A stretch of DNA of 64,000 nucleotides from Microbacteriaceae bacterium MWH-Ta3 (GTDB lineage: Bacteria; Actinomycetota; Actinomycetes; Actinomycetales; Microbacteriaceae), in assembly GCA_003053925.1 (NCBI GenBank), contig QBKD01000001.1:1240001-1304000 (forward strand), written 5' to 3'. The notes beneath the pieces are model-generated. The model was not told the origin of the DNA. It saw only the letters and a list, made by a program, of their open reading frames with translations, and did no database searches. Positions 19,171 to 29,108 of the stretch are shown here, in pieces (the stretch's first letter is position 1; each line of letters begins with the position of its first letter). Position numbers and translations under genes: made by a program.

Positions 19171-19245
19171 CACGAAAAATTGCAACCAATGGGGTTGAAA
19201 GGGGCGGAATCGAGGTTTCACCTCGATGCGTTGTTATTTTTCGCG
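19171..19245. repeat. Intergenic AT-armed palindromic element, copy A
   Basis: Left arm CACGAAAAATTGCAACCAAT (19171-19190) and right arm GCGTTGTTATTTTTCGCG (19228-19245) are imperfect inverted repeats. Between them is an inner perfect hairpin of 8 base pairs (ATCGAGGT, loop TTC, ACCTCGAT; 19209-19227). It lies in the 220-base gap between the cupin and lysE-type genes and shares sequence and layout with copies at 20001, 21372 and 26808. The rest of this gap holds only a short palindrome GCAAAAAATTTGC at 19141, possibly an arm remnant. Confidence 0.8.
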
Positions 19246-19331
19246 AACATGATGGGTGGCGAGGTCGGTATGTAACGCGACGTGGTGGGGCACGCGAGGT
19301 GCGGCCGCGCCGACTGTGACAGGCTAAACAC

Positions 19332-19958
19332 ATGTCTGTCGAACTGCTGCTGGCCTATTGGGTTGTGTCGTTCCTGTTGACCATCACCCCTGGTGCCGAC
19401 TGGGCGTTCGTGATTGCGGCGGGTCTGCGCGAAAAGTCCGTCGTGCCGTCGGTTGCCGGGCTTCTGGTGGGGTACACGGGCCTCACCGCAGTCGTTGCGG
19501 CGGGCCTCGCGGTCATCGTGTCGCAATCCGAGCTGGCCATGCTGGCGTTGTCCGTATCGGGCGGCGTGTATCTGCTGTGGCTGGGTTTCACGACTCTGAA
19601 AAATCCCACCGTGCCGACCGACGACGACGATGCGCCGCGCGGTTCGGCGTGGACGCGTCTGTGGGTGGGGGCCGGAGTGAGCGGCCTGAACCCCAAGGCA
19701 CTGTTGCTGTTTGTCGCACTACTGCCACAATTCGTCGATTCGGACGGTGCGTGGCCCATTGGGCTACAGCTTGCACTGTTGGGCCTCATTCACATGCTGA
19801 ATACTGCCGCGGTGTATTCGCTGGTGGGCGTTTTTGCCGCACGAATTTTGCGGTCGAGGCCGGCAACTGCGGTGTTCGTGAGCCGCCTGTCGGGTATGTC
19901 GATGGTGCTGATCGGCCTCGTGCTGCTGGGCGAAAAGGTCTGGGAAATGATGGCGTGA
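19332..19958 (+). CDS. LysE/RhtB family amino-acid exporter
   Basis: 208 residues with about six membrane helices. The N-terminal signature LLTITPGADWAFVIAAGLREKS is the LysE/RhtB motif (usually PGP), and the GLNPKALLLFVALLPQFV block near residue 120 is the second conserved motif. The family exports lysine, homoserine, threonine or similar. The gene stands alone, flanked on both sides by copies A and B of an intergenic repeat in the same orientation, which could have moved it. No strong ribosome binding site is seen. Confidence 0.88.
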   Translation: MSVELLLAYWVVSFLLTITPGADWAFVIAAGLREKSVVPSVAGLLVGYTGLTAVVAAGLAVIVSQSELAMLALSVSGGVYLLWLGFTTLKNPTVPTDDDDAPRGSAWTRLWVGAGVSGLNPKALLLFVALLPQFVDSDGAWPIGLQLALLGLIHMLNTAAVYSLVGVFAARILRSRPATAVFVSRLSGMSMVLIGLVLLGEKVWEMMA

Positions 19959-20000
19959 CCTGCGGTCACTCCGAATAATGACAACCAGCGGCGCGATCCC

Positions 20001-20074
20001 GGCGAAAATTTACAACCGCGTGGTTTGAAAATGCGGAAATCGAGGCTTCGCCTCAATCTGTTGTAATTTTTCGC
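20001..20074. repeat. Intergenic AT-armed palindromic element, copy B
   Basis: Left arm GGCGAAAATTTACAACCGCG (20001-20020), right arm CTGTTGTAATTTTTCGC (20058-20074), inner hairpin GAGGC-TTC-GCCTC. It aligns with copy A over most of its right two thirds (shared GAAATCGAGG and CCTC-AT-TTGT-ATTTTTCGC), in the same orientation. Confidence 0.78.
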
Positions 20075-20105
20075 AATCGGCCACTGCAGAAAATTGCACA
20101 GAAGT

Positions 20106-20117
20106 TAGGCTGGCTGC
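20106..20117 (+). promoter_or_regulatory. Leaderless-type promoter of luxS
   Basis: TAGGCT at 20106-20111 is six bases before the ATG; no ribosome binding site is present. Confidence 0.5.
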
Positions 20118-20588
20118 ATGTCTGATGCACCCACGATGAACGTCGAATCCTTCAATCTCGATCACCGCGCAGTCGCGGCGCCGTACATTCGGGTGGCTGA
20201 CCGCAAAACACTCCCGCACGGCGATGTCATCACGAAGTTCGACGTGCGTTTCACCCAGCCCAATGTGGCGTATCTCGACATGCCGGCAATCCATTCGTTG
20301 GAACATCTGTTTGCCGAGAAAAGCCGCAACCACTCGGACGCCATCATCGATTTTTCGCCCATGGGCTGCCAAACCGGTTTCTATCTGATCGTCCGCGGCG
20401 AACCCACGTTTGACGACATCGCCAATCTTGTCGAGCGCACATTGCGCGACGTCCTGGTGGCGACCGAGGTTCCCGCGGCCAATGAGGTTCAGTGCGGCTG
20501 GGGTGCGAACCACTCGCTCGAGGGTGCGCAATCTGCCGCATCCGATTTTCTTGCGGCACGTGCCTCGTGGTCACAGGTTATGGCGTGA
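20118..20588 (+). CDS. luxS: S-ribosylhomocysteine lyase LuxS
   Basis: 156 residues. LuxS cleaves S-ribosylhomocysteine to homocysteine and DPD, the precursor of autoinducer-2. The metal ligands HSLEH (His59, His63) and Cys126 (EVQCGWG) are present, as are the catalytic Cys84 (PMGCQTGFY) and the substrate-binding N-terminus SFNLDHRAV. The gene overlaps the nucleosidase gene (GTGA), so both enzymes that recycle S-adenosylhomocysteine are made from one message. Confidence 0.95.
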
Positions 20589-21304
20589 GCACAGACACCG
20601 CTTGCGTGGTCACCGCTACACCGACCGCCATCGTCATCGTGGCAATGGACGACGAGGCCGTGCCGTTCCTGGACATGGCTGACTCGGTCACCGAGATTGT
20701 CGCTGGCGCCGCCTTCACTGCCCGTTCCCTTCTGTTCGGACAGCGTTCTATTGCCCTGATTGTTGCGGGAATTGGGATGGTCAATGGCGCACACGCGGCG
20801 ACACAAGCAATCGTGCGCTGGGGCGCGCACGTTCCGTTGATTAGTGCAGGCAGCGCGGGCGGGCTCGGTGGCGATATTCGCGTCGGCGAGGTGATTGTGA
20901 GTTCGGCCCTGGTGAACCTCGATGCCGATGTGCGTGCATTTGGCTACGCTCTGGGCCAGGTGCCCGGAATGCCCGCCGAATACGAAGCCTCGGTGGAACT
21001 TCGAGGCGCGGCGCTCGCCGATTCGTCGACATTCGTCGTGCGCTCTGGAGTTATCGGTTCGGGCGACCGATTCGTGACCACCGACGTGGCGCACCAGATA
21101 CGCCAGGATTTCCCGGCGATCTCGGCTGTGGATATGGAATCCGCGGCAATCGCCCAGATTGCTTTCCGCCACGATGTCCCATTTGTGTCGGTCCGTGCGA
21201 TTTCGGACCTCTGCGCGCCCGACGGCGACGAATTTCTGACGCACATCGACGACGCCGCACGGAATTCGGCGGCTGTGGTGGTGGCGGCGCTCGCGCGGCT
21301 GTAG
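20585..21304 (+). CDS. mtnN: 5'-methylthioadenosine/S-adenosylhomocysteine nucleosidase
   Basis: 239 residues from a GTG at 20585 that shares bases with the luxS stop. The enzyme removes adenine from S-adenosylhomocysteine, giving the LuxS substrate, and from methylthioadenosine. The nucleoside phosphorylase fold is visible: VIVAMDDEA at the start, the SAGSAGGL loop, the SGDRFV substrate part and the [13 protein letters not shown] motif with the Met-Glu that binds ribose, followed by VRAISDLC with the catalytic Asp. The frame is open further upstream within luxS but without family resemblance. Confidence 0.93.
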
Positions 21305-21371
21305 TCGCGCCTCGCCTGGCCCAATCGTCAGCGCACCCAATCACCGCGTTTCACCTGCTGCGCGCGCGTTC

Positions 21372-21450
21372 TTCGCAAAAAATTACAACGCACCGAGGTG
21401 GCAGCCACCTTTTACGCATTTGGGGCTGGTTGGTTGCAATTTTTCGAACG
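21372..21450. repeat. Intergenic AT-armed palindromic element, copy C (inverted orientation)
   Basis: Left arm TTCGCAAAAAATTACAACG (21372-21390), right arm GGTTGCAATTTTTCGAACG (to 21450) and an inner 7-base-pair hairpin AGGTGGC-A-GCCACCT (21396-21410). Read on the minus strand it has the same order of parts as copies A and B. It lies between mtnN and tRNA-Gly. Confidence 0.75.
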
Positions 21451-21517
21451 AAATCCCCGCATAACCACTGTCAAAATGCGGGAGGAATGCGAAATCCCCG
21501 CCGAACCACTGCAAAAT
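21450..21517. repeat. Two imperfect 27-28 base direct repeats
   Basis: 21450-21477 and 21491-21517 share GAAATCCCCGC, AACCACTG and CAAAAT at matching spacing. The first also forms a hairpin (CCCGCAT against ATGCGGG, 21456-21482). They lie downstream of tRNA-Gly on its strand and may be decayed terminators. Confidence 0.55.
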
Positions 21518-21529
21518 CCTCCGGGGAAC

Positions 21530-21559
21530 GCAAAAGCCCCGGCGCGAACGCCGGGGCTG
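21530..21559 (-). terminator. Intrinsic terminator of tRNA-Gly
   Basis: On the minus strand a GC-rich stem AGCCCCGGCG with CGCCGGGGCT and a short loop is followed by TTTT, directly after the tRNA 3' end. Confidence 0.8.
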
Positions 21560-21633
21560 TGGAGGGGATGACGGGAATCGAACCCGCGTGATCAGTTTGG
21601 AAGACTGAGGCTCTACCATTGAGCTACATCCCC
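21560..21633 (-). tRNA. tRNA-Gly (anticodon TCC)
   Basis: On the minus strand a full cloverleaf is formed: acceptor GGGGATG with CATCCCC, D arm with GCTC/GAGC, anticodon loop CTTCCAA (anticodon TCC), T arm GCGGG-TTCGATT-CCCGT, discriminator T and an encoded CCA end. 74 bases including CCA. Confidence 0.95.
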
Positions 21634-21640
21634 ACAGGGG

Positions 21641-21669
21641 AGTCTAATACACAAATTCTGATGCTCGAA
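21641..21669 (-). promoter_or_regulatory. Promoter of tRNA-Gly
   Basis: On the minus strand TTCGAG, a 17-base spacer and TAGACT end about eight bases before the tRNA. A second TAGACT on the plus strand at 21692-21697 could serve tRNA-Pro and tig in the other direction. Confidence 0.5.
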
Positions 21670-21746
21670 ACACCTCGCGCCGTGGCATGGTTTTCACCCG
21701 CTAGACTTGGGGAGCCTCGTGTGCGTGTTCGCGCGCCACGAAAGCC

Positions 21747-21821
21747 CGGGGCGTAGCTCAGCTTGGCTAGAGCGCCCGCTTTGGGAGCGGGAGGTCGCAG
21801 GTTCGAATCCTGTCGCCCCGA
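21747..21821 (+). tRNA. tRNA-Pro (anticodon TGG)
   Basis: Cloverleaf with acceptor CGGGGCG/CGCCCCG, anticodon stem CCCGC/GCGGG, loop TTTGGGA (anticodon TGG), T arm GCAGG-TTCGAAT-CCTGT and discriminator A. The CCA end is not encoded. It lies 28 bases upstream of the trigger factor start, so both probably share a transcript. Confidence 0.94.
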
Positions 21822-21849
21822 CGGTTACAACACACCAAGGAGATATGTA

Positions 21850-23202
21850 GTGCCTACCAACACAGTTGAGCGTCTTAACCCCACTCGCATCAAGTTGACG
21901 ATTGAGGTGACTCCGGAAGAGCTCAAGCCCTCGCTCGACCACGCCTACAAGCACATCGCGGAATCGGTGAACATTCCCGGTTTCCGTAAGGGCAAGGTTC
22001 CCGCCCGCATGATCGACCAGCGCGTTGGTCGTGGCGAAGTTCTCGCTCACGCTGTGTCGGAAGGCATCGACGGTTTCTTCCGTGACGCCGTCAAGGCCGA
22101 GAACATCAAGCCCCTCGGTCGTCCCGAGGTTACCGACACCGTCATGCCCAACGAGGCTGACTTTTCGGGCAACCTGGTTCTCACCATCGAAACCGACGTG
22201 CGTCCCGAATTCGACCTCCCCGCCTACGAGGGCCTCAAGGTCACCGTTGATGCAGCGAACGTCAGCAAGGCCGAGGTCGAGGCAGAGCTCGAGTCCGTGC
22301 GTACCCGCTTCGGCACTCTGGTCACCGTTGACCGTCCCGTTACCAAGGGTGACTTCGTCACCATCGACCTGTCGGCCACCATCGGCGACAAGGTCATCGA
22401 CACCGCCTCGTCGATCTCGTATGAGGTTGGATCGGGCGAACTGATTGACGGCATCGACGAAGCCATCGACACGCTCACCGCAGGCGAATCGACCACCTTT
22501 GAATCGAAACTGCTGGGCGGCGACCACGCCGGCGAGATGGCACAGATTGCTGTGACCGTCACCAGCGTGAAGGTTCGCGAACTGCCCGAGGCCGACGACG
22601 AATTCGCGCAGGTCGCCAGCCAGTTCGACACCATCAAGGAACTCCGCGAGGACCTCAAGACCCAGCTCGAGAATCGCAAGGTTTACGAACAGGGCGCTCA
22701 GGCTCGCACCGTCCTCGTTGACCTTCTTCTGGAGAAGACGAAGATCGAGGTCCCTGCCGGAATCATCGAAGACGAGGTCACGCGTCACCTCGAGGGCGAA
22801 AACCGCCTCGACGATGACGCACACCGCGCTGAGGTTCAGGAATCGACCGCAAAGTCGTTCCGCCTGCAGATTCTGCTGGACGCCATCGCCGAGAAGGAAG
22901 AAGTTCAGGTCGGTCAGGACGAACTTCTGTCGTACCTCTTCCAGTCGGCTCAGCAGTACGGCATGGAAGCCAACGAATTCATCAAGATCCTGTCGCAGAA
23001 CAACCAGATTCCCGCCATGGTGGGCGAGGTTGCACGCTCGAAGGCCATCGCGCTCGTACTGAGCAAGGCCGAGGTCGTCGACTCGAAGGGCAAGGTCATT
23101 GACCTGTCCGAGTTCACCGCTTCGGCGTCGGCTGCAGTCGAGTCGCCGATCGATGCTCACGAGGGCCACGACCACGACGACCACGCAGGTCACAACCACT
23201 AA
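21850..23202 (+). CDS. tig: Trigger factor (ribosome-associated chaperone and peptidyl-prolyl isomerase)
   Basis: 450 residues from a GTG with AAGGAG at 21837-21842. The ribosome-docking loop is FRKGKVP (around residue 45), followed by the FKBP-type domain ([15 protein letters not shown] to GDHAGEMA) and the helical C-terminal chaperone arms. The last 15 residues are His- and Asp-rich ([15 protein letters not shown]), a possible metal-binding tail. The frame upstream of 21850 runs through tRNA-Pro and is not coding. It precedes clpP1-clpP2, as in most bacteria. Confidence 0.95.
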
Positions 23203-23245
23203 GTAGTGGTTTTTCGGAAATGGGCTGCTTCGGCAGCCCATTTTC
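23194..23245 (+). terminator. Tandem hairpin terminators after tig
   Basis: A 7-base-pair hairpin AACCACT/AGTGGTT (23194-23211) overlaps the tig stop codon and is followed by T residues. A second, TGGGCTGC-TTCG-GCAGCCCA (23221-23240) followed by TTTT, lies ten bases on. Together they separate tig from clpP1. Confidence 0.75.
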
Positions 23246-23320
23246 TTTGCCCTTGGCGAATATGGCCCAAGCCCGCTAAGTGCTTGGGTACTCTGGCACA
23301 GAACCCTAAAGGAGTGTGTG

Positions 23321-23908
23321 ATGAGCGATTCGATGTTCCCACCGAACGTCTTCGACCGTCTGTTGAAGGACCGCATTATTTGGTTGGGCAGTGAAGTCCG
23401 CGACGATAACGCCAACGAGATCGCAGCCAAGCTGTTGCTTCTCGCTGCGGAGGATCCCGAGAAGGACATTTACCTGTACATCAACTCGCCCGGTGGTTCG
23501 ATCACGGCCGGTATGGCCATCTACGACACCATGCAGTTCGTGCCCAACGACATCGTCACGGTGGGAATCGGTATGGCCGCGTCGATGGGTCAGTTGCTGT
23601 TGACCGCCGGCACAAAGGGCAAGCGATACATCACGCCGAACGCGCGCGTGCTCTTGCACCAGCCCCACGGTGGATTCGGTGGTACCGCCTCGGATATTCA
23701 AACCCAGGCCCAGCTGATTTTGTCCATGAAGCAGCGTCTGGCGGAAATCACCGCCGAAGCGACGGGCAAGACTGTCGAACAGGTCAATGCCGATGGCGAC
23801 CGTGACCGTTGGTTTACCGCGGAAGAGGCGCTTGCCTACGGTTTTGTCGACCACATTCGTGCCAGCGCGACCGACGTCATTGGCGGCGGCGGAACGAGCG
23901 GAAAGTAA
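23321..23908 (+). CDS. clpP1: ATP-dependent Clp protease proteolytic subunit ClpP1
   Basis: 195 residues from the ATG at 23321, preceded by AGGAG; a GTG one codon earlier is possible. Catalytic triad: Ser88 in GMAASMGQ, His113 in HQPHGG, and Asp158 in NADGDRDRW. The axial-loop and strand motif YINSPGGS is at 53-60. It forms the chamber of the Clp protease; actinobacteria typically need a mixed ClpP1P2 tetradecamer. The gene is five bases upstream of clpP2. Confidence 0.95.
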
Positions 23909-23913
23909 ACACC

Positions 23914-24561
23914 ATGAACTACACATTCGATGGCCGTGCGCCGATTGCAATGCCCGAGTCGCGCTACATCCTTCCCGATTTCGAAGAGCGTACCTCGTAC
24001 GGTGTGCGCTCGCAGAACCCCTATTCGAAGCTGTTCCAGGACCGCATTGTGTTCCTGGGCGTGCAGGTCGACGACGCATCGGCCGATGACGTCATGGCGC
24101 AGCTGCTCGTTCTGGAAAGCCAGGACCCCGAGCGCGACATCGTCATGTACATCAATTCGCCCGGTGGATCCTTCACCGCGATGACCGCAATTTACGACAC
24201 GATGCAGTACATCCGCCCCCAGATTCAGACCGTTGTTCTGGGTCAGGCGGCATCCGCTGCCGCCGTGTTGTTGGCCGGTGGAACGCCCGGCAAGCGCCTC
24301 GCGCTTCCCAACGCACGCATTCTGATTCACCAGCCCTCGACGGGCGACGCGGGCCGCGGCCAGGCGTCGGACATCGAGATTCAGGCGCGCGAAATCGCTC
24401 GCCTGCGCGAATGGCTCGAGGTCACGTTGTCGGATCACTCGAACAAGTCGATCGACGAGGTTCGCCGCGACATCGACCGCGACAAGATCCTCACGGCTGC
24501 CGAGGCCTTGGAATACGGTCTGATTGACCAGGTTCTGACCAGCCGTAAGACGGTCAAGTAG
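23914..24561 (+). CDS. clpP2: ATP-dependent Clp protease proteolytic subunit ClpP2
   Basis: 215 residues from the ATG at 23914; codons upstream overlap clpP1. The triad is Ser114 (GQAASAA), His139 (HQPSTGD) and Asp186 (RRDIDRDK). The N-terminus (about 20 residues before [13 protein letters not shown]) is longer than in ClpP1 and may be a propeptide, as in mycobacterial ClpP2. It partners ClpP1 and is fed by ClpX or ClpC. Confidence 0.95.
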
Positions 24562-24576
24562 TACCCAGGTTGTGAC

Positions 24577-24607
24577 GAAGCGGGTGGGCCATGTGTCCAC
24601 CCGCTTC
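24577..24607. terminator. Bidirectional hairpin between clpP2 and the CopC-like gene
   Basis: A perfect 11-base-pair stem GAAGCGGGTGG/CCACCCGCTTC with a nine-base loop sits between the convergent genes. There is no clear T run. Confidence 0.65.
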
Positions 24608-24650
24608 TGTCGTTAAGCCGTGCGTAACCCCTGCCAGGTCGTGCACATTG

Positions 24651-25277
24651 CTAGGACAGGTGGTCTTCGCTTTCACGCGAACCCAGGAGTCGAATCAGTA
24701 ACCAGATCGCGCCAATAAGCACGGGAATGGTGGACAGGCCAATCCATACGGGCAGCCAATCGGGTTCCGATTCGGTGCTTGGCCCGGGCACGCCCGGGCT
24801 GGGGGCCTCGGTGGGCTCCACGGTTTCTTCGCCGACGGGCGTTTGCGACTCACCGCAGATGGGAATGTTCGAGTACGCGGGGCCTTGATCGGCGTCTTCG
24901 GCTGGCGCCCACTCAAAGCTGAATTCGCCCGAGATTGTGTGACCATCGCGGGACACCACTTGATATTGCACGGTGTACGTGCCCGGGCCGCCCAGTGCGG
25001 CGTGTGTCGAGGCCTCGGATCCCATGACGTCCACGCACCCGTCGCCGTAGTACAGGCCTGCCTCATCGTGAACGACAATGGCAAAGCCGCCTCCCGCACC
25101 ACCCATATCGAGCAACTCGTCGTTGGTGTACACGGTGATGGCGGGAATGTTCGACACCGTCTCGCCATCAGCGGGCGTCGAACCCACGATGGAGTTGTGC
25201 GCGGTCGCGGGGGAGGTGCCCACAAGTGTAACGGCGAAGGCAAGGGTGATGGCGCTGGCTGCGCCTCGAATGGTCAT
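24651..25277 (-). CDS. CopC-domain copper-binding protein, membrane anchored
   Basis: 208 residues. A signal peptide ends near TSPATA-HNS, leaving an N-terminal His that would be a copper ligand, as in CopC. The domain follows the family order: VGSTPADGETVSNIPAITVYTN, then GPGTYTVQYQVVSRDGHTISGEFSF with the second His. An acidic Pro/Glu/Thr linker leads to one C-terminal membrane helix (LPVWIGLSTIPVLIGAIWLLIRLL) and a short cytoplasmic tail. It probably binds copper at the outer face of the membrane. Convergent with clpP2 and divergent from clpX. Confidence 0.85.
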   Translation of the reverse strand: MTIRGAASAITLAFAVTLVGTSPATAHNSIVGSTPADGETVSNIPAITVYTNDELLDMGGAGGGFAIVVHDEAGLYYGDGCVDVMGSEASTHAALGGPGTYTVQYQVVSRDGHTISGEFSFEWAPAEDADQGPAYSNIPICGESQTPVGEETVEPTEAPSPGVPGPSTESEPDWLPVWIGLSTIPVLIGAIWLLIRLLGSRESEDHLS

Positions 25278-25289
25278 GTTTATAGAGTA
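25278..25289 (-). promoter_or_regulatory. Leaderless-type promoter of the CopC-like gene
   Basis: On the minus strand TACTCT is followed by six bases and the ATG. TGAACA, 18 bases upstream of the -10 box, is a possible -35. Confidence 0.5.
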
Positions 25290-25376
25290 CGCGCCACGCC
25301 GCGGCGCTTCTGTTCATAATGTGCAGGGCGTATTCGCAGGCCGCGTTAGGCTTATCGGGTACACGAAGGAGGGGCC

Positions 25377-26651
25377 ATGCCGCGCATTGGCGATAGCACC
25401 GATCTGCTGAAGTGTTCCTTCTGTGGGAAAACCCAAAAGCAGGTGCAGCAACTAATTGCCGGACCCGGCGTGTACATCTGCGACGAATGCGTCGAGCTGT
25501 GCAACGAGATCATTGAGGAACGCCTGACCGAGGCGAAGTCCGACGAGGTTATCGATTTCGACCTGCCGAAGCCCCGTGAAATTTCGGCTTTCCTTGACGA
25601 ATACGTCATTGGTCAAGACGCGGCAAAACGAGCACTCTCGGTAGCCGTGTACAACCACTACAAGCGGGTTCGCGCCGCCGACGGCCCGCGTTCGGCCGAA
25701 CAGATTCACGACGAAATCGAAATCGCGAAGTCGAACATTCTGCTGATCGGTCCTACGGGTTGCGGCAAGACGTACCTGGCGCAAACGCTGGCACGCCGTC
25801 TGAACGTGCCGTTTGCTGTGGCCGACGCTACGGCGCTGACCGAAGCCGGTTACGTCGGTGAAGATGTCGAGAATATTCTGTTGAAGCTTCTGCAGGCCGC
25901 CGATTTCGACGTGGCGCGTGCACAGACCGGCATTATCTACATCGACGAGGTCGACAAGATTGCGCGCAAGGCGGAAAACCCGTCCATCACCCGCGACGTG
26001 TCGGGCGAGGGTGTGCAGCAGGCTCTCTTAAAGATCTTGGAAGGCACAGTCGCCAGCGTTCCTCCGCAGGGCGGCCGCAAACACCCTCATCAGGAATTCA
26101 TTCAGATCGACACGACCAATGTGCTCTTTATCGTGGCGGGCGCATTTGCTGGCCTGGAAGAGATCATCTCGCAGCGCGTCGGTCGTCATGGAATCGGATT
26201 TGGCGCGCCACTGCAGGCCAAGCGCGACGACCAGGCATTATTCGGCGAGGTCCTGCCCGAGGACCTGCACAAGTTCGGACTGATTCCCGAGTTCATCGGC
26301 CGTCTGCCCGTCGTGACCTCGGTTTTGCCGCTGGACCGCGATGCGCTCATCGACATTTTGACCGGCCCCAAGAACGCGCTCGTTAAGCAGTATCAGCGCA
26401 TGTTCGAACTGGATGGCGTGTCACTGGAATTCGAACGCGATGCACTCGAAGCCATCGCCGACCTCGCGGTTGTGCGCCAGACGGGCGCGCGCGGACTGCG
26501 GGCGATCCTCGAAGACGTCTTGGGTCCCGTGATGTTCGACGTTCCCTCGGTCGATCACATCGACACGGTCATCATCACGCGCGACGCCGTTGTCAACGGA
26601 GCCGCGCCCACCTTCATCGAGCGCACCGAGCGTACCGAAAAGTCCGCCTAG
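25377..26651 (+). CDS. clpX: Clp protease ATPase subunit ClpX
   Basis: 424 residues. ClpX unfolds substrates and threads them into ClpP. The N-terminal zinc finger has Cys13, Cys16, Cys35 and Cys38; Walker A GPTGCGKT is at 125-132, the pore loop GYVG follows TEAG, Walker B is IYIDEVDK near 190, and the IGF-type ClpP-docking loop region contains GIGFGAP near 278-284. The ATG has a GAAGGAGG ribosome binding site. It is separated from clpP1P2 only by the inserted minus-strand CopC-like gene. Confidence 0.96.
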
Positions 26652-26660
26652 TCTTACGTC

Positions 26661-26685
26661 GACCGACTTGCGTCGCTAGTCGGTC
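26661..26685. terminator. Hairpin after clpX
   Basis: GACCGACT (26661-26668) pairs perfectly with AGTCGGTC (26678-26685) across a nine-base loop. The right arm is part of a duplicated end of the M3 peptidase gene, so this was probably once a bidirectional terminator between two adjoining genes. Confidence 0.5.
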
Positions 26686-26701
26686 AGGCCGCGGCGCGTC
26701 A
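26678..26701 (-). pseudogene. Duplicated 3' tip of the M3 peptidase gene
   Basis: 24 bases match 27080-27103, the true end of the M3 peptidase gene, with two mismatches. Read on the minus strand it encodes ALTRRGLTD and a TAG stop, against LLKRRGLTD and TGA in the intact gene. It marks the left border of the repeat block. Confidence 0.65.
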
Positions 26702-26723
26702 GCGCCGAATTTGGTGGTGTCAT

Positions 26724-26830
26724 CGCGAAAAATTGCAACTAATCGCGTCCGCGCACTCGTGTCACCGCGAAAAATTGCAACCAATCACGTCCGCGCACTC
26801 GTGTCACCGCGAAAAATTGCAACCAATCAC
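26724..26830. repeat. 42-base tandem repeat carrying element arms
   Basis: Two full units (26724-26765, 26766-26807) and a partial third start with CGCGAAAAATTGCAAC, the left arm of the intergenic element. Units differ at only a few positions. No unique spacers are present, so this is not a CRISPR array. Confidence 0.85.
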
Positions 26831-26880
26831 GTCCAAAGTCTTGTTTGTGGGGTTTGAGGCCCGTTGGTTGTAATTTTTCT
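26808..26880. repeat. Intergenic AT-armed palindromic element, copy D
   Basis: Left arm CGCGAAAAATTGCAACCAAT (from 26808) and right arm GTTGGTTGTAATTTTTC (26863-26879) enclose about 35 bases that include GGGGTTTGA, similar to copies A and B. It is the last unit of the 42-base tandem array. Confidence 0.78.
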
Positions 26881-26950
26881 GCACGCTGCACGCTGCACGC
26901 TGTACGCTGCACGCTGCACGCTGCACGCTGCACGCTGCACGCGGCACGCG
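26881..26950. repeat. 7-base tandem repeat, ten units
   Basis: GCACGCT is repeated eight times with one variant (GTACGCT), followed by two GCACGCG units. It begins directly at the end of element D. Confidence 0.9.
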
Positions 26951-26992
26951 GCAGCTACGGTTGCACCACCGTTCCGGCTCCCTGCGACGCTC

Positions 26993-27048
26993 GCCTGTCG
27001 GCCTGTCGGCCTGTCGGCCTGTCGGCCTGTCGGCCTGTCGGCCTGTCG
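26993..27048. repeat. 8-base tandem repeat, seven units
   Basis: GCCTGTCG is repeated seven times without a mismatch. The 42 bases between this and the 7-base repeat (26951-26992) show no feature. Confidence 0.92.
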
Positions 27049-27051
27049 GCC

Positions 27052-27083
27052 AGTCAGTCAGTCAGTCAGTCAGTCAGTCAGTC
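27052..27083. repeat. 4-base tandem repeat, eight units, entering the M3 peptidase stop codon
   Basis: AGTC is repeated eight times. The last unit and a half form the stop codon and final Asp codon of the convergent M3 peptidase gene (27078-27083). Confidence 0.92.
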
Positions 27084-29108
27084 GGTCAGTCCGCGGCGCT
27101 TCAACAGAGCAGCGAGGTCGGCGTCACGACCGCGCAGTTCACGGTAGGCCTGCAAGGGGTCGCGTGATCCGCCAAAGCCCAGCACGTGGGCGCGGAACGC
27201 ATCGCCGTTGGAGCGCGTTGCCCCGCCGTTCTCGGTGAACCATTCCACGGCGTCTGCATCCAACACCTCGCTCCAGATGTATGCGTAATACTGTGCGTCG
27301 TACCCACCGCCAAACGAATGCTGGAAAAAGCTGGACGAATATCGAGGCGGAACCGCCGCCATCAGCAGCCCGTGACGTTCCAGAACCTCCGACTCAAACG
27401 CGGCCACGTCGGTCACGGCGGCGGCCTCGTCCGCACTCAACATGTGCCACTCGTGGTCGATCAGCGCGGCGGCCAGGTACGACGCCGTCGCGTATCCCTC
27501 TCCCCACTGCTGGCTGGCACGGATTCGGTCGATGATGGCGGTGGGCAGCGCCTCGTTTGTTTCATGATGTCGCGCGTAGTTTTCCACGATGCTGGGCCAG
27601 AACATCCACATTTCGTTGACCTGGCTGGGGAATTCCACATAGTCGCGATACACGTTGGTGCCGGATTGGCTGGGGTAACGCACCCGCGCCAGCAGGCCGT
27701 GCAGAGTGTGACCGAACTCGTGGAACAGCGTGTTGACTTCGTCAAAGTTCAGCAGCGTGGGCATTCCCGCGGCGGGCTTTGCAACATTGAGGTTGTTGAC
27801 CACAACCACGGGCATATCCAGAAGGGTGTTCTGCGCCACCAGTTCGTTCATCCACGCGCCGCCGCGCTTGGTGTCGCGGGTGTAGAGGTCGTACACGTAC
27901 AGCCCGATGGGTGTGCCGTCTTCCTCGAAGACTTCAAAAATCCGCGTGTCGGGGTGGTATCCCACGAGGTCCGTTCGTTCCACGAACGTGATGCCGTACA
28001 AGGCGGTGGCCGCGAAGAAGACACCGTCGATCAACACGCGCTCGGCCTCGAAATAGGGACGAAGAGCCGTCTCGTCCACGTCGAAGTCGCGCAGTCGCAC
28101 GAGGTCGGAATAGTAGGCCCAGTCGTAAGAGGCAATATCGTGACCAGCTTCGGCAACCAGGCGGTCGTGTTCGCGGCGCACGCTGCGCGTTGCGGCCTCG
28201 GCGAGGTTGGTCAATCGCTCCCGAATTGCCGCAGCTGTCTGAGCCGTGTTACCGGCTGCAATGAGTTCCTGGTGGTTCGCAAACCCCAACAGTTCGGCAC
28301 GCTCGGCACGAAGTCGCACGATCTCGAGCAGCGTCTCGCGGGTGTCGTGCTCGCCGCCTCGTCGCCCACGGGCCGCCTGCGCGGACATAATGCGCTCGCG
28401 CGATTCACGGTGCGACATCGAGGCGATGACCGGGTTGTTCGCGGGCAATACGAGCGTGACGAGATACTTTCCCTCGTGGCCGCGCTCGGTTGCTGCTGAT
28501 GCCGCGGCGGACAATTCACCCGCCGATAGCCCGGCAAGTTCTTCGGCGGTGTCGAATAACACGGCGAGGTCGTTGGCATCGGCCTGCAGTTTGTTGTCAA
28601 ACTGGGTTTCCAGTGTCGAGAGGCGCCCATTGATTTCCGAGAGCCGCGACTTGGCGTCGGCAGACAACGCCGCACCGCGCAACACCATGTCGTGGTGGGT
28701 GCGCTCCAGCAAATACAGTTGATCGGCGTCGAGGTTCAGCTCGTGCCGTGACTCGAACAGGGCAGCGACCCGCGCGAATAGCCCGGCATCCAGAATGATG
28801 GTGTCGTGGTGAGCGGCAAGAAGTGGCGCAAACGCGGTGTCCAACGCGATGACGTCGTCGGTGGCGTCAGCGCTCGATGCATTAGCCAGCACGATGTGCG
28901 CGCGCGACAGGATCTGTCCGCTGCGTTCCCACGCCTCCATGGTGTTTGCAAAGGTCGGTGCCTCGGTGTTGTCTGTAATCGCCCGAATTTCGGCGCGTTG
29001 TTCCTCCATGCCCGCCAACAATGCCGGCCCGATGTCGGCTACCGCAATTTTCGCGAAGTCCGGTAGTTGATACGGCAGTGTGCTGGGGGCATCGAAGGGG
29101 TTAGGCAT
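27078..29108 (-). CDS. M3 family oligopeptidase (peptidyl-dipeptidase Dcp / oligopeptidase A type)
   Basis: 676 residues from the ATG at 29108; eleven upstream codons lack support. A large helical N-terminal half precedes the zinc site HEFGHTLHGLL (near residue 455) and the downstream Glu about 25 residues later. The C-terminal substrate-binding pieces YDAQYYAYIWSEV and GGSRDPLQAYRELRGR are typical of Dcp. It degrades short peptides in the cytoplasm, likely products of Clp proteolysis. The last codons lie in an AGTC tandem repeat. It is third in a valS-acetyltransferase-M3 operon. Confidence 0.93.
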   Translation of the reverse strand: MPNPFDAPSTLPYQLPDFAKIAVADIGPALLAGMEEQRAEIRAITDNTEAPTFANTMEAWERSGQILSRAHIVLANASSADATDDVIALDTAFAPLLAAHHDTIILDAGLFARVAALFESRHELNLDADQLYLLERTHHDMVLRGAALSADAKSRLSEINGRLSTLETQFDNKLQADANDLAVLFDTAEELAGLSAGELSAAASAATERGHEGKYLVTLVLPANNPVIASMSHRESRERIMSAQAARGRRGGEHDTRETLLEIVRLRAERAELLGFANHQELIAAGNTAQTAAAIRERLTNLAEAATRSVRREHDRLVAEAGHDIASYDWAYYSDLVRLRDFDVDETALRPYFEAERVLIDGVFFAATALYGITFVERTDLVGYHPDTRIFEVFEEDGTPIGLYVYDLYTRDTKRGGAWMNELVAQNTLLDMPVVVVNNLNVAKPAAGMPTLLNFDEVNTLFHEFGHTLHGLLARVRYPSQSGTNVYRDYVEFPSQVNEMWMFWPSIVENYARHHETNEALPTAIIDRIRASQQWGEGYATASYLAAALIDHEWHMLSADEAAAVTDVAAFESEVLERHGLLMAAVPPRYSSSFFQHSFGGGYDAQYYAYIWSEVLDADAVEWFTENGGATRSNGDAFRAHVLGFGGSRDPLQAYRELRGRDADLAALLKRRGLTD

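Follow-up and report, generated by a model that had tools for sequence, protein, structure and literature searches.

Dispersed fixed-length dyads and the DUF559 nuclease-like genes they bracket: a candidate REPIN-like system in Microbacteriaceae and related families

Dyads in the window and in its genome

The stretch of DNA analysed here (the window, 64,000 nucleotides) comprises positions 1240001-1304000 of contig C1 in the genome of Microbacteriaceae bacterium MWH-Ta3 (G000; 1.56 Mb, 2 contigs, G+C content ∼0.61). It carries four copies of a palindromic repeat, hereafter called a dyad, made of a 19-bp arm (CGCGAAAAATTRCAACCAA), 37 bp of centre and the same arm inverted, with arm starts 56 bp apart. 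The subject of this work is the dyad family and a nuclease-like gene of the DUF559 type that dyads bracket elsewhere in the same genome. All four loci proposed in a sequence-only reading of the window are present, each with a refined core of 75 bp. The inverted arms described in that reading stand; the constant arm-start distance, 56 bp in every copy, and two further direct arms to the left of copy D had been overlooked. A small inner hairpin, also described there, can be seen by eye in several copies but is no family-wide feature. The arms and dyads located in the window are as follows.

19171..19245, + strand: dyad copy A; the arm at 19171-19189 and its inverted partner at 19227-19245 enclose a 37-bp centre
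19970..19988, + strand: uncertain additional direct arm, matching weakly with 5 mismatches, 31 bp to the left of copy B
20001..20075, + strand: dyad copy B; the arm at 20001-20019 and its inverted partner at 20057-20075 enclose the centre
21374..21448, - strand: dyad copy C; the arm at 21374-21392 and its inverted partner at 21430-21448 enclose the centre
26724..26742, + strand: outer lateral arm of copy D, in direct orientation, 84 bp to the left of the core arm
26766..26784, + strand: inner lateral arm of copy D, in direct orientation, 42 bp to the left of the core arm and 42 bp from the arm at 26724
26808..26882, + strand: dyad copy D; the arm at 26808-26826 and its inverted partner at 26864-26882 enclose the centre

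Arm matches with at most 3 mismatches number 5 in the window, where dinucleotide shuffles predict 0.01, and 72 in the whole of G000, where a reversed-pattern control gives none. With a sequence-only model built from 27 cores we found 28 full-length or near-full-length dyads in G000 at E-values below 1e-9 (the 28th at 931083-931156), plus one additional weak dyad at 1312673-1312745 (E-value 1.4e-4). The repeat is therefore not confined to the four copies first noticed, an outcome that the sequence-only reading had named as speaking against a mobile or functional family. Its placement between genes was borne out as well: our own codon-usage script predicted no gene that overlaps any of the 27 cores checked (the 28th was not covered).

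The 56-bp distance between arm starts holds in all 27 cores and in the 28th dyad. To survey spacing, the arms of the 27 cores were turned into a weight matrix, which gave 122 arm matches on 12 stretches (257,611 bases) versus 2 after one mononucleotide shuffle. Every facing pair of arms <87 bp apart (29 of 29) was at 56 bp. Same-strand neighbours up to 110 bp apart gave 53 spacings, mostly of 41-42 bp (31) or 51-52 bp (17), the remainder being 62-63 bp (2), 31 bp (1) and others at 98 and 110 bp; periods from 10.0 to 11.0 bp fit these lateral spacings about equally, the values being too few to fix the period. The arms in G000 are laid out as (+)n, a single inversion and (-)m. The centres are weakly alike among the G000 dyads and the arms are conserved. 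No common function was seen in 40 genes scanned at or near them.

Arms as probable double-stranded DNA sites

In an alignment of 27 sequences with 19 arm pairs, standard pairing was found in 82.1% of cells versus 82.7% in shuffles, the covariation score was 0.084 versus 0.088 in shuffles, and the dyad consensus folds with only −2.3 kcal/mol. Many arm variants keep a seven-base A/T tract in which the order has changed (AAAAATT, AAAATTT, AAATTTT, AATTTTT), sometimes on one side only. As the arms vary without compensatory pairing, they look like double-stranded, perhaps curved, protein sites rather than an RNA stem. Protein-binding sites were among the possibilities offered by the sequence-only reading, and this one is supported by the independent variation of the arms, the fixed 56-bp dyad spacing and the lateral arms at steps of about a helical turn. 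Peaks of A/T content lie 0-1, 8-10, 19-20 and 27-33 bp away from the dyad centre.

The CGCGAAAAATTRCAACCAA arm appears to be lineage-specific, since 59 relatives outside G000 hold at most two single arms per genome, the dyad model gave no convincing match in 39 other genomes (nine with E-values up to 1, best 0.011), and a scan of genome_contigs, in which records near the window's genome may be left out, returned a single dyad-pattern match, on a Spirochaetales contig. The pattern gave no match in viral contigs. Among the best matches in open-access literature (PMC) we found no description of such repeats.

A DUF559 gene between dyads

Outside the window, between dyads at 163618 and 164848, lies the gene of protein P0001 (G000:C1:163851-164681, 276 aa), which has a low codon score and has as neighbours genes for a pyridine-nucleotide oxidoreductase and an M16 peptidase. 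P0001 matches the Pfam families DUF559 (34.3 bits, cut-off 20.6) and MTES_1575 (41.8 bits, cut-off 38.2) and is the only match to PF04480 in G000. Its C-terminus matches the Vsr-like PD-(D/E)XK nuclease directly; an AbiEi-like winged-helix N-terminus may be proposed from weak matches of its relatives. Six residues (E177, Q194, D203, E213, H220 and D229) are invariant in 8 aligned proteins including P0001. Homologues of the P0001 type were present in 105 of 150 genomes of the family, and DUF559 nuclease-like genes of this type in 123 of 149 genomes of the order. We know of no function for this DUF559 architecture.

Bracketing of such genes was assessed by a strict test, defined as matching dyads of equal length on both sides of the gene. 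Among the 30 family loci returned by the homologue search, G000's own included, 10 passed, compared with 0 of 255 control open reading frames (ORFs); with 16 loci added from genomes chosen for their dyads, the count was 18 of 46 against the same 0 of 255. A shared flank match with score of at least 16 was seen at 16 of the 30 loci and at 0 of 79 control ORFs, which were taken from 20 of these genomes; a less demanding dyad score, of at least 10, was reached at 12 of 30 loci and 1 of 79 controls. Eight more loci from the own family were put to the strict test, and three passed. Elsewhere in the order, outside this family, it was passed at 8 of 21 loci (six families) versus 0 of 215 control ORFs drawn from 15 of these genomes, although two of the eight, L234 and L235, come from one genus and have a common arm, so they are not independent; shared flank matches were found there at 13 of 21 loci versus 2 of 215 controls. 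Of the 76 ORFs used, a profile check confirmed 71 to be DUF559-like. The five failures (L095, L205, L207, L224 and L226) are all non-strict, thus every strict locus has a confirmed DUF559-like ORF. Many DUF559 genes have repeats on both sides that differ in sequence from CGCGAAAAATTRCAACCAA.

Arm families across genomes

Dyads with the arm GAAATGCAGGA were found in 10 of the 150 genomes (35, 20, 14, 11, 7, 5, 3, 3, 1 and 1 copies), with a control pattern giving 0 throughout; their length is nearly fixed per genome, e.g. 79 bp in 20 of 20 dyads of G085. They bracket a DUF559 gene in seven of the ten carriers (G163, G112, G066, G143, G085, G023 and G166). The bracketing arms of G023 carry one mismatch to GAAATGCAGGA; in G166 one side is incomplete and the gene, L207 (G166:C3:46937-47804), is apparently broken into two frames. 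No GAAATGCAGGA bracketing was seen at any of the 13 other DUF559 loci fetched from the carrier genomes (more matches exist than were fetched), and some of these 13 have different arms of their own. Among the dyads of G163, and among those of G085, the centres show little similarity, local duplicates excepted, and the arms are conserved.

Another arm, CAATTCAGCAGA, forms 19 dyads in G169 only, among the 150 genomes, and there the DUF559 gene at C7:230387 is bracketed. In many of the listed G169 dyads (L130-L139) there is an additional inverted pair further in, GACACGCCG/CGGCGTGTC, which might represent another class of site. In the window's genus, TTTCTGCAGACA arms face each other at distances of mostly 52-54 bp and have lateral arms at 31-32 bp; the DUF559 gene of G014 sits between such arms and the locus failed the strict test.

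Similarity of arms correlates with identity of the DUF559 proteins (Mantel r 0.50, reached in 2 of 5000 permutations). Arm sequence partly follows the tree of the DUF559 proteins.

Presence, absence and conservation of dyads in sister species

Between the sister species G163 and G095, homologous DNA at dyad regions could be compared in 9 pairs, and the dyad position was the same in 7 of them; L166/L182 and L167/L180, where the dyads lie on opposite sides of the homologous block, were excluded from the common positions. At all 7 common positions the 11-bp arms are identical. One of the seven dyads (L179 2412-2490/L189 2407-2485) lies inside a 271-codon frame (L179 2052-2867) and its interior is 0.81 identical.

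A search at a fixed gap of 56 bp with up to 3 mismatches found 30 dyads in G163 with no mismatch, 3 with one and none with two or three; in G085, whose own spacing is one base longer, it gave three matches with 3 mismatches each. Since 3 mismatches were allowed, the perfection of the arms is no artefact of searching for exact arms.

Two empty sites were found in G095. At one, ∼1.5 kb with three dyads and a DUF559 gene is missing and ∼33 bp lies between the homologous ends; at the other, a ∼370-bp dyad array is missing and ∼59 bp is left. A target-site duplication was not evident by eye at these two sites (L176/L271 and L174/L270), where the sequence beside the elements has diverged and a short old duplication could be missed. 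A third G163 dyad (L169) has no G095 counterpart, and only one side of it aligns. Stretches of G095 fetched by predicted position gave a match in 4 of 10 cases, one of them weak; the empty sites are therefore not a sample of all dyad sites. Elsewhere in G163, ∼1.2 kb with an extra dyad (L177 1316-2522) stands against ∼12 bp between homologous blocks in G095 (L188 1919-1932).

A proposed two-component system of dyads and DUF559 protein

With moderate confidence we propose that the dyads and the DUF559 protein constitute a two-component system, in which the protein reads the arms. Such a system would resemble that of REPINs (paired repetitive extragenic palindromic, or REP, sequences) and RAYTs (REP-associated tyrosine transposases), with an unrelated enzyme in place of the RAYT. 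This proposal is based on the existence of the family, its fixed geometry, the lack of covariation, the bracketing of DUF559 genes seen statistically in other genera and families, the partial agreement between arms and proteins, the conservation of arms at common positions and the presence/absence differences between species.

In this system, the DUF559 protein would bind the arms as double-stranded DNA. The fixed spacing suggests that two molecules on inverted arms 56 bp apart could form a core complex bridging the dyad, and the ∼10-bp steps in spacing suggest that lateral arms about 4, 5 or 6 helical turns out might supply further cooperative sites. The nuclease domain may nick or cut at dyads, after which repair or recombination would copy, move or delete elements and leave the arms intact. 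The gene between the dyads may, in addition, be controlled by its own product, and the host could conceivably benefit.

A wider proposition, for which we see about as much reason to accept as to doubt, is that this is an unrecognized class spanning the order: in each lineage the Vsr-like DUF559 protein would co-evolve with its own population of double-stranded, helically phased dyads, which bracket its own gene, and would copy or repair the arms, keeping them perfect while the spacers drift. It would amount to an independently invented REPIN-like system that combines a restriction-type nuclease with recognition of double-stranded DNA. If DUF559 proteins do read dispersed dyads, a widespread protein family gains a target and up to dozens of intergenic repeats per genome gain an owner. 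One would also have an independent replicate of the question posed by REPINs and RAYTs, namely how populations of short sequences persist in a bacterial chromosome and whether the host gains anything.

Several observations weigh against the proposed system. The chief one is that G095, which is 99% complete, has 14 exact-arm GAAATGCAGGA dyads, and no DUF559 homologue was found in it at E-values up to 0.001. Likewise G010, a 94%-complete draft, has facing arms and no P0001 match. Either the gene was lost recently in these genomes or the arms have another reader. In E. coli, REPINs are described as persisting in genomes without a RAYT (PMC8049555); arms without enzyme are thus possible, which is no proof for G095 or G010. 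The arms of G095 are not decaying, either: its fixed-gap dyads include 12 with no mismatch and none with one to three. Moreover, interiors at the six common non-coding positions are only 0.38-0.55 identical, which is little above the chance identity that we would expect for such GC-rich DNA; recent copying of whole elements would not predict values so low.

Other difficulties concern the protein and the statistics. AbiEi_4 falls below the Pfam cut-off in three relatives and is absent in a fourth, and a match of it to P0001 was not found at E-values up to 0.001. At the place where most of the aligned relatives carry E-x-D-G or E-x-D-S, ETHG is found in P0001 and in the relative from its genus, and because of this replacement the nuclease activity of P0001 is uncertain. 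The strict test was failed by 20 of the 30 DUF559 loci, and some DUF559 loci have no flank repeat beyond chance. When 5 of the 6 GAAATGCAGGA loci are removed, the Mantel r drops to 0.29 (100 of 5000 permutations). Finally, one A/T peak, at 23-24 bp from the dyad centre, is out of 10-bp phase.

Other explanations and known systems

The strongest competitor, though one that we regard as rather unlikely, is that the dyads are sites of some other conserved protein, chromosome-organizing or regulatory, and that DUF559 genes are passengers or parasites settled between the sites. It would account for the dyads of G095 and G010, where no DUF559 gene was detected, for arms that are all-or-none in G163 and G095 and identical at the 7 common positions, and for positions rich in A/T at about 0, 10, 19 and 30 bp on either side of the centre. 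It is at odds with arms that differ between genera, in part along with the DUF559 clade, with paralogues in one genome that have distinct arms of their own, and with the lack of a common function among the genes scanned around dyads.

We consider it improbable that the dyads are classical miniature inverted-repeat transposable elements (MITEs), i.e. non-autonomous copies cut and pasted by a transposase that recognizes terminal inverted repeats. With MITEs and miniature elements derived from insertion sequences the dyads have in common inverted arms, small size, fixed length, dispersal in intergenic gaps and presence/absence between sister species. They differ in that interiors are little alike where arms are intact, even at common positions with identical arms; no target duplication is evident by eye at the two empty sites; lateral arms stand at helical steps; and no transposase with matching ends was found. 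A gene does lie between dyads, as an autonomous relative would, but it is DUF559 and not a known transposase. The MITE suggestion of the sequence-only reading has therefore found poor support.

Its other suggestion in this direction, a REP-like element, holds to the extent that, by analogy, there is a companion enzyme; that companion is a DUF559 nuclease of the Vsr-like kind, and the arms do not form REP hairpins. REPs flank RAYT genes, and a REP arm is a small hairpin with a GTAG-type tag. That the dyads are a true REP/REPIN family served by a RAYT, an HUH tyrosine transposase, seems to us very improbable: the bracketed gene is DUF559 and not a Y1 transposase (no RAYT search was made elsewhere in the genome), and the CGCGAAAAATTRCAACCAA arm lacks a GTAG tag and, read by eye, does not form a hairpin by itself. 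In addition, dyad length is nearly fixed per genome, lateral direct arms stand at about 3-6 helical turns, and the DUF559/MTES_1575 companion is PD-(D/E)XK and not HUH. As two defining features, the HUH enzyme and the tagged REP hairpin, fail, we do not file the dyads under REPIN/RAYT. The proposed system would nonetheless work in a similar way: REPINs, as described in PMC8049555, likewise have short inverted arms, a diverse spacer, many dispersed copies and a single-copy, vertically inherited companion enzyme, and they too occur in enzyme-less genomes. The GTAG tag is named in the title of PMC3733652.

Two further systems share single traits with the dyads. Bacterial interspersed mosaic elements (BIMEs) are mosaic arrays of REPs; like them, the dyads form arrays of arms with fixed orientation and regular spacing, and unlike them they are laid out as (+)n, one inversion point and (-)m, with no REP sequence. 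AbiEi, the antitoxin of a type IV toxin-antitoxin system, binds inverted repeats upstream of its own operon, and relatives of P0001 have a weakly AbiEi_4-like N-terminus; in the case of P0001, gene neighbours are not a toxin, a nuclease domain is fused and the dyad sites are spread over the genome.

Least probable of all is a structured RNA or transcription terminator with arms pairing in the transcript, a suggestion of the sequence-only reading to which the complementary arms and the T run in the right arm lend some colour and which we dropped given covariation no higher than in shuffles, the weak consensus fold, tract changes such as AAAAATT versus AATTTTT that would break the stem, and an Rfam search of the window that matched three tRNAs only and none of the dyad copies.

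Further observations around the dyads

An HNH protein adjoining two dyads was set aside as a generic HNH protein. Contig C2 of G000 (L056, 10.9 kb) was considered as the source of a mobile enzyme, and no such gene was present among 5 ORFs scanned; the contig encodes a PA14/RHS-repeat protein, an ABC ATPase and an MFS protein, and no dyad match is listed on it. In the window, a 41-bp tandem repeat (2.2 copies, 21451-21541) abuts copy C, and three tandem arrays lie beside copy D at 26879-27091 (∼11 × CTGCACG, 8 × GCCTGTCG and 10 × CAGT). Simple GC-rich tandem repeats also adjoin some other dyad copies.

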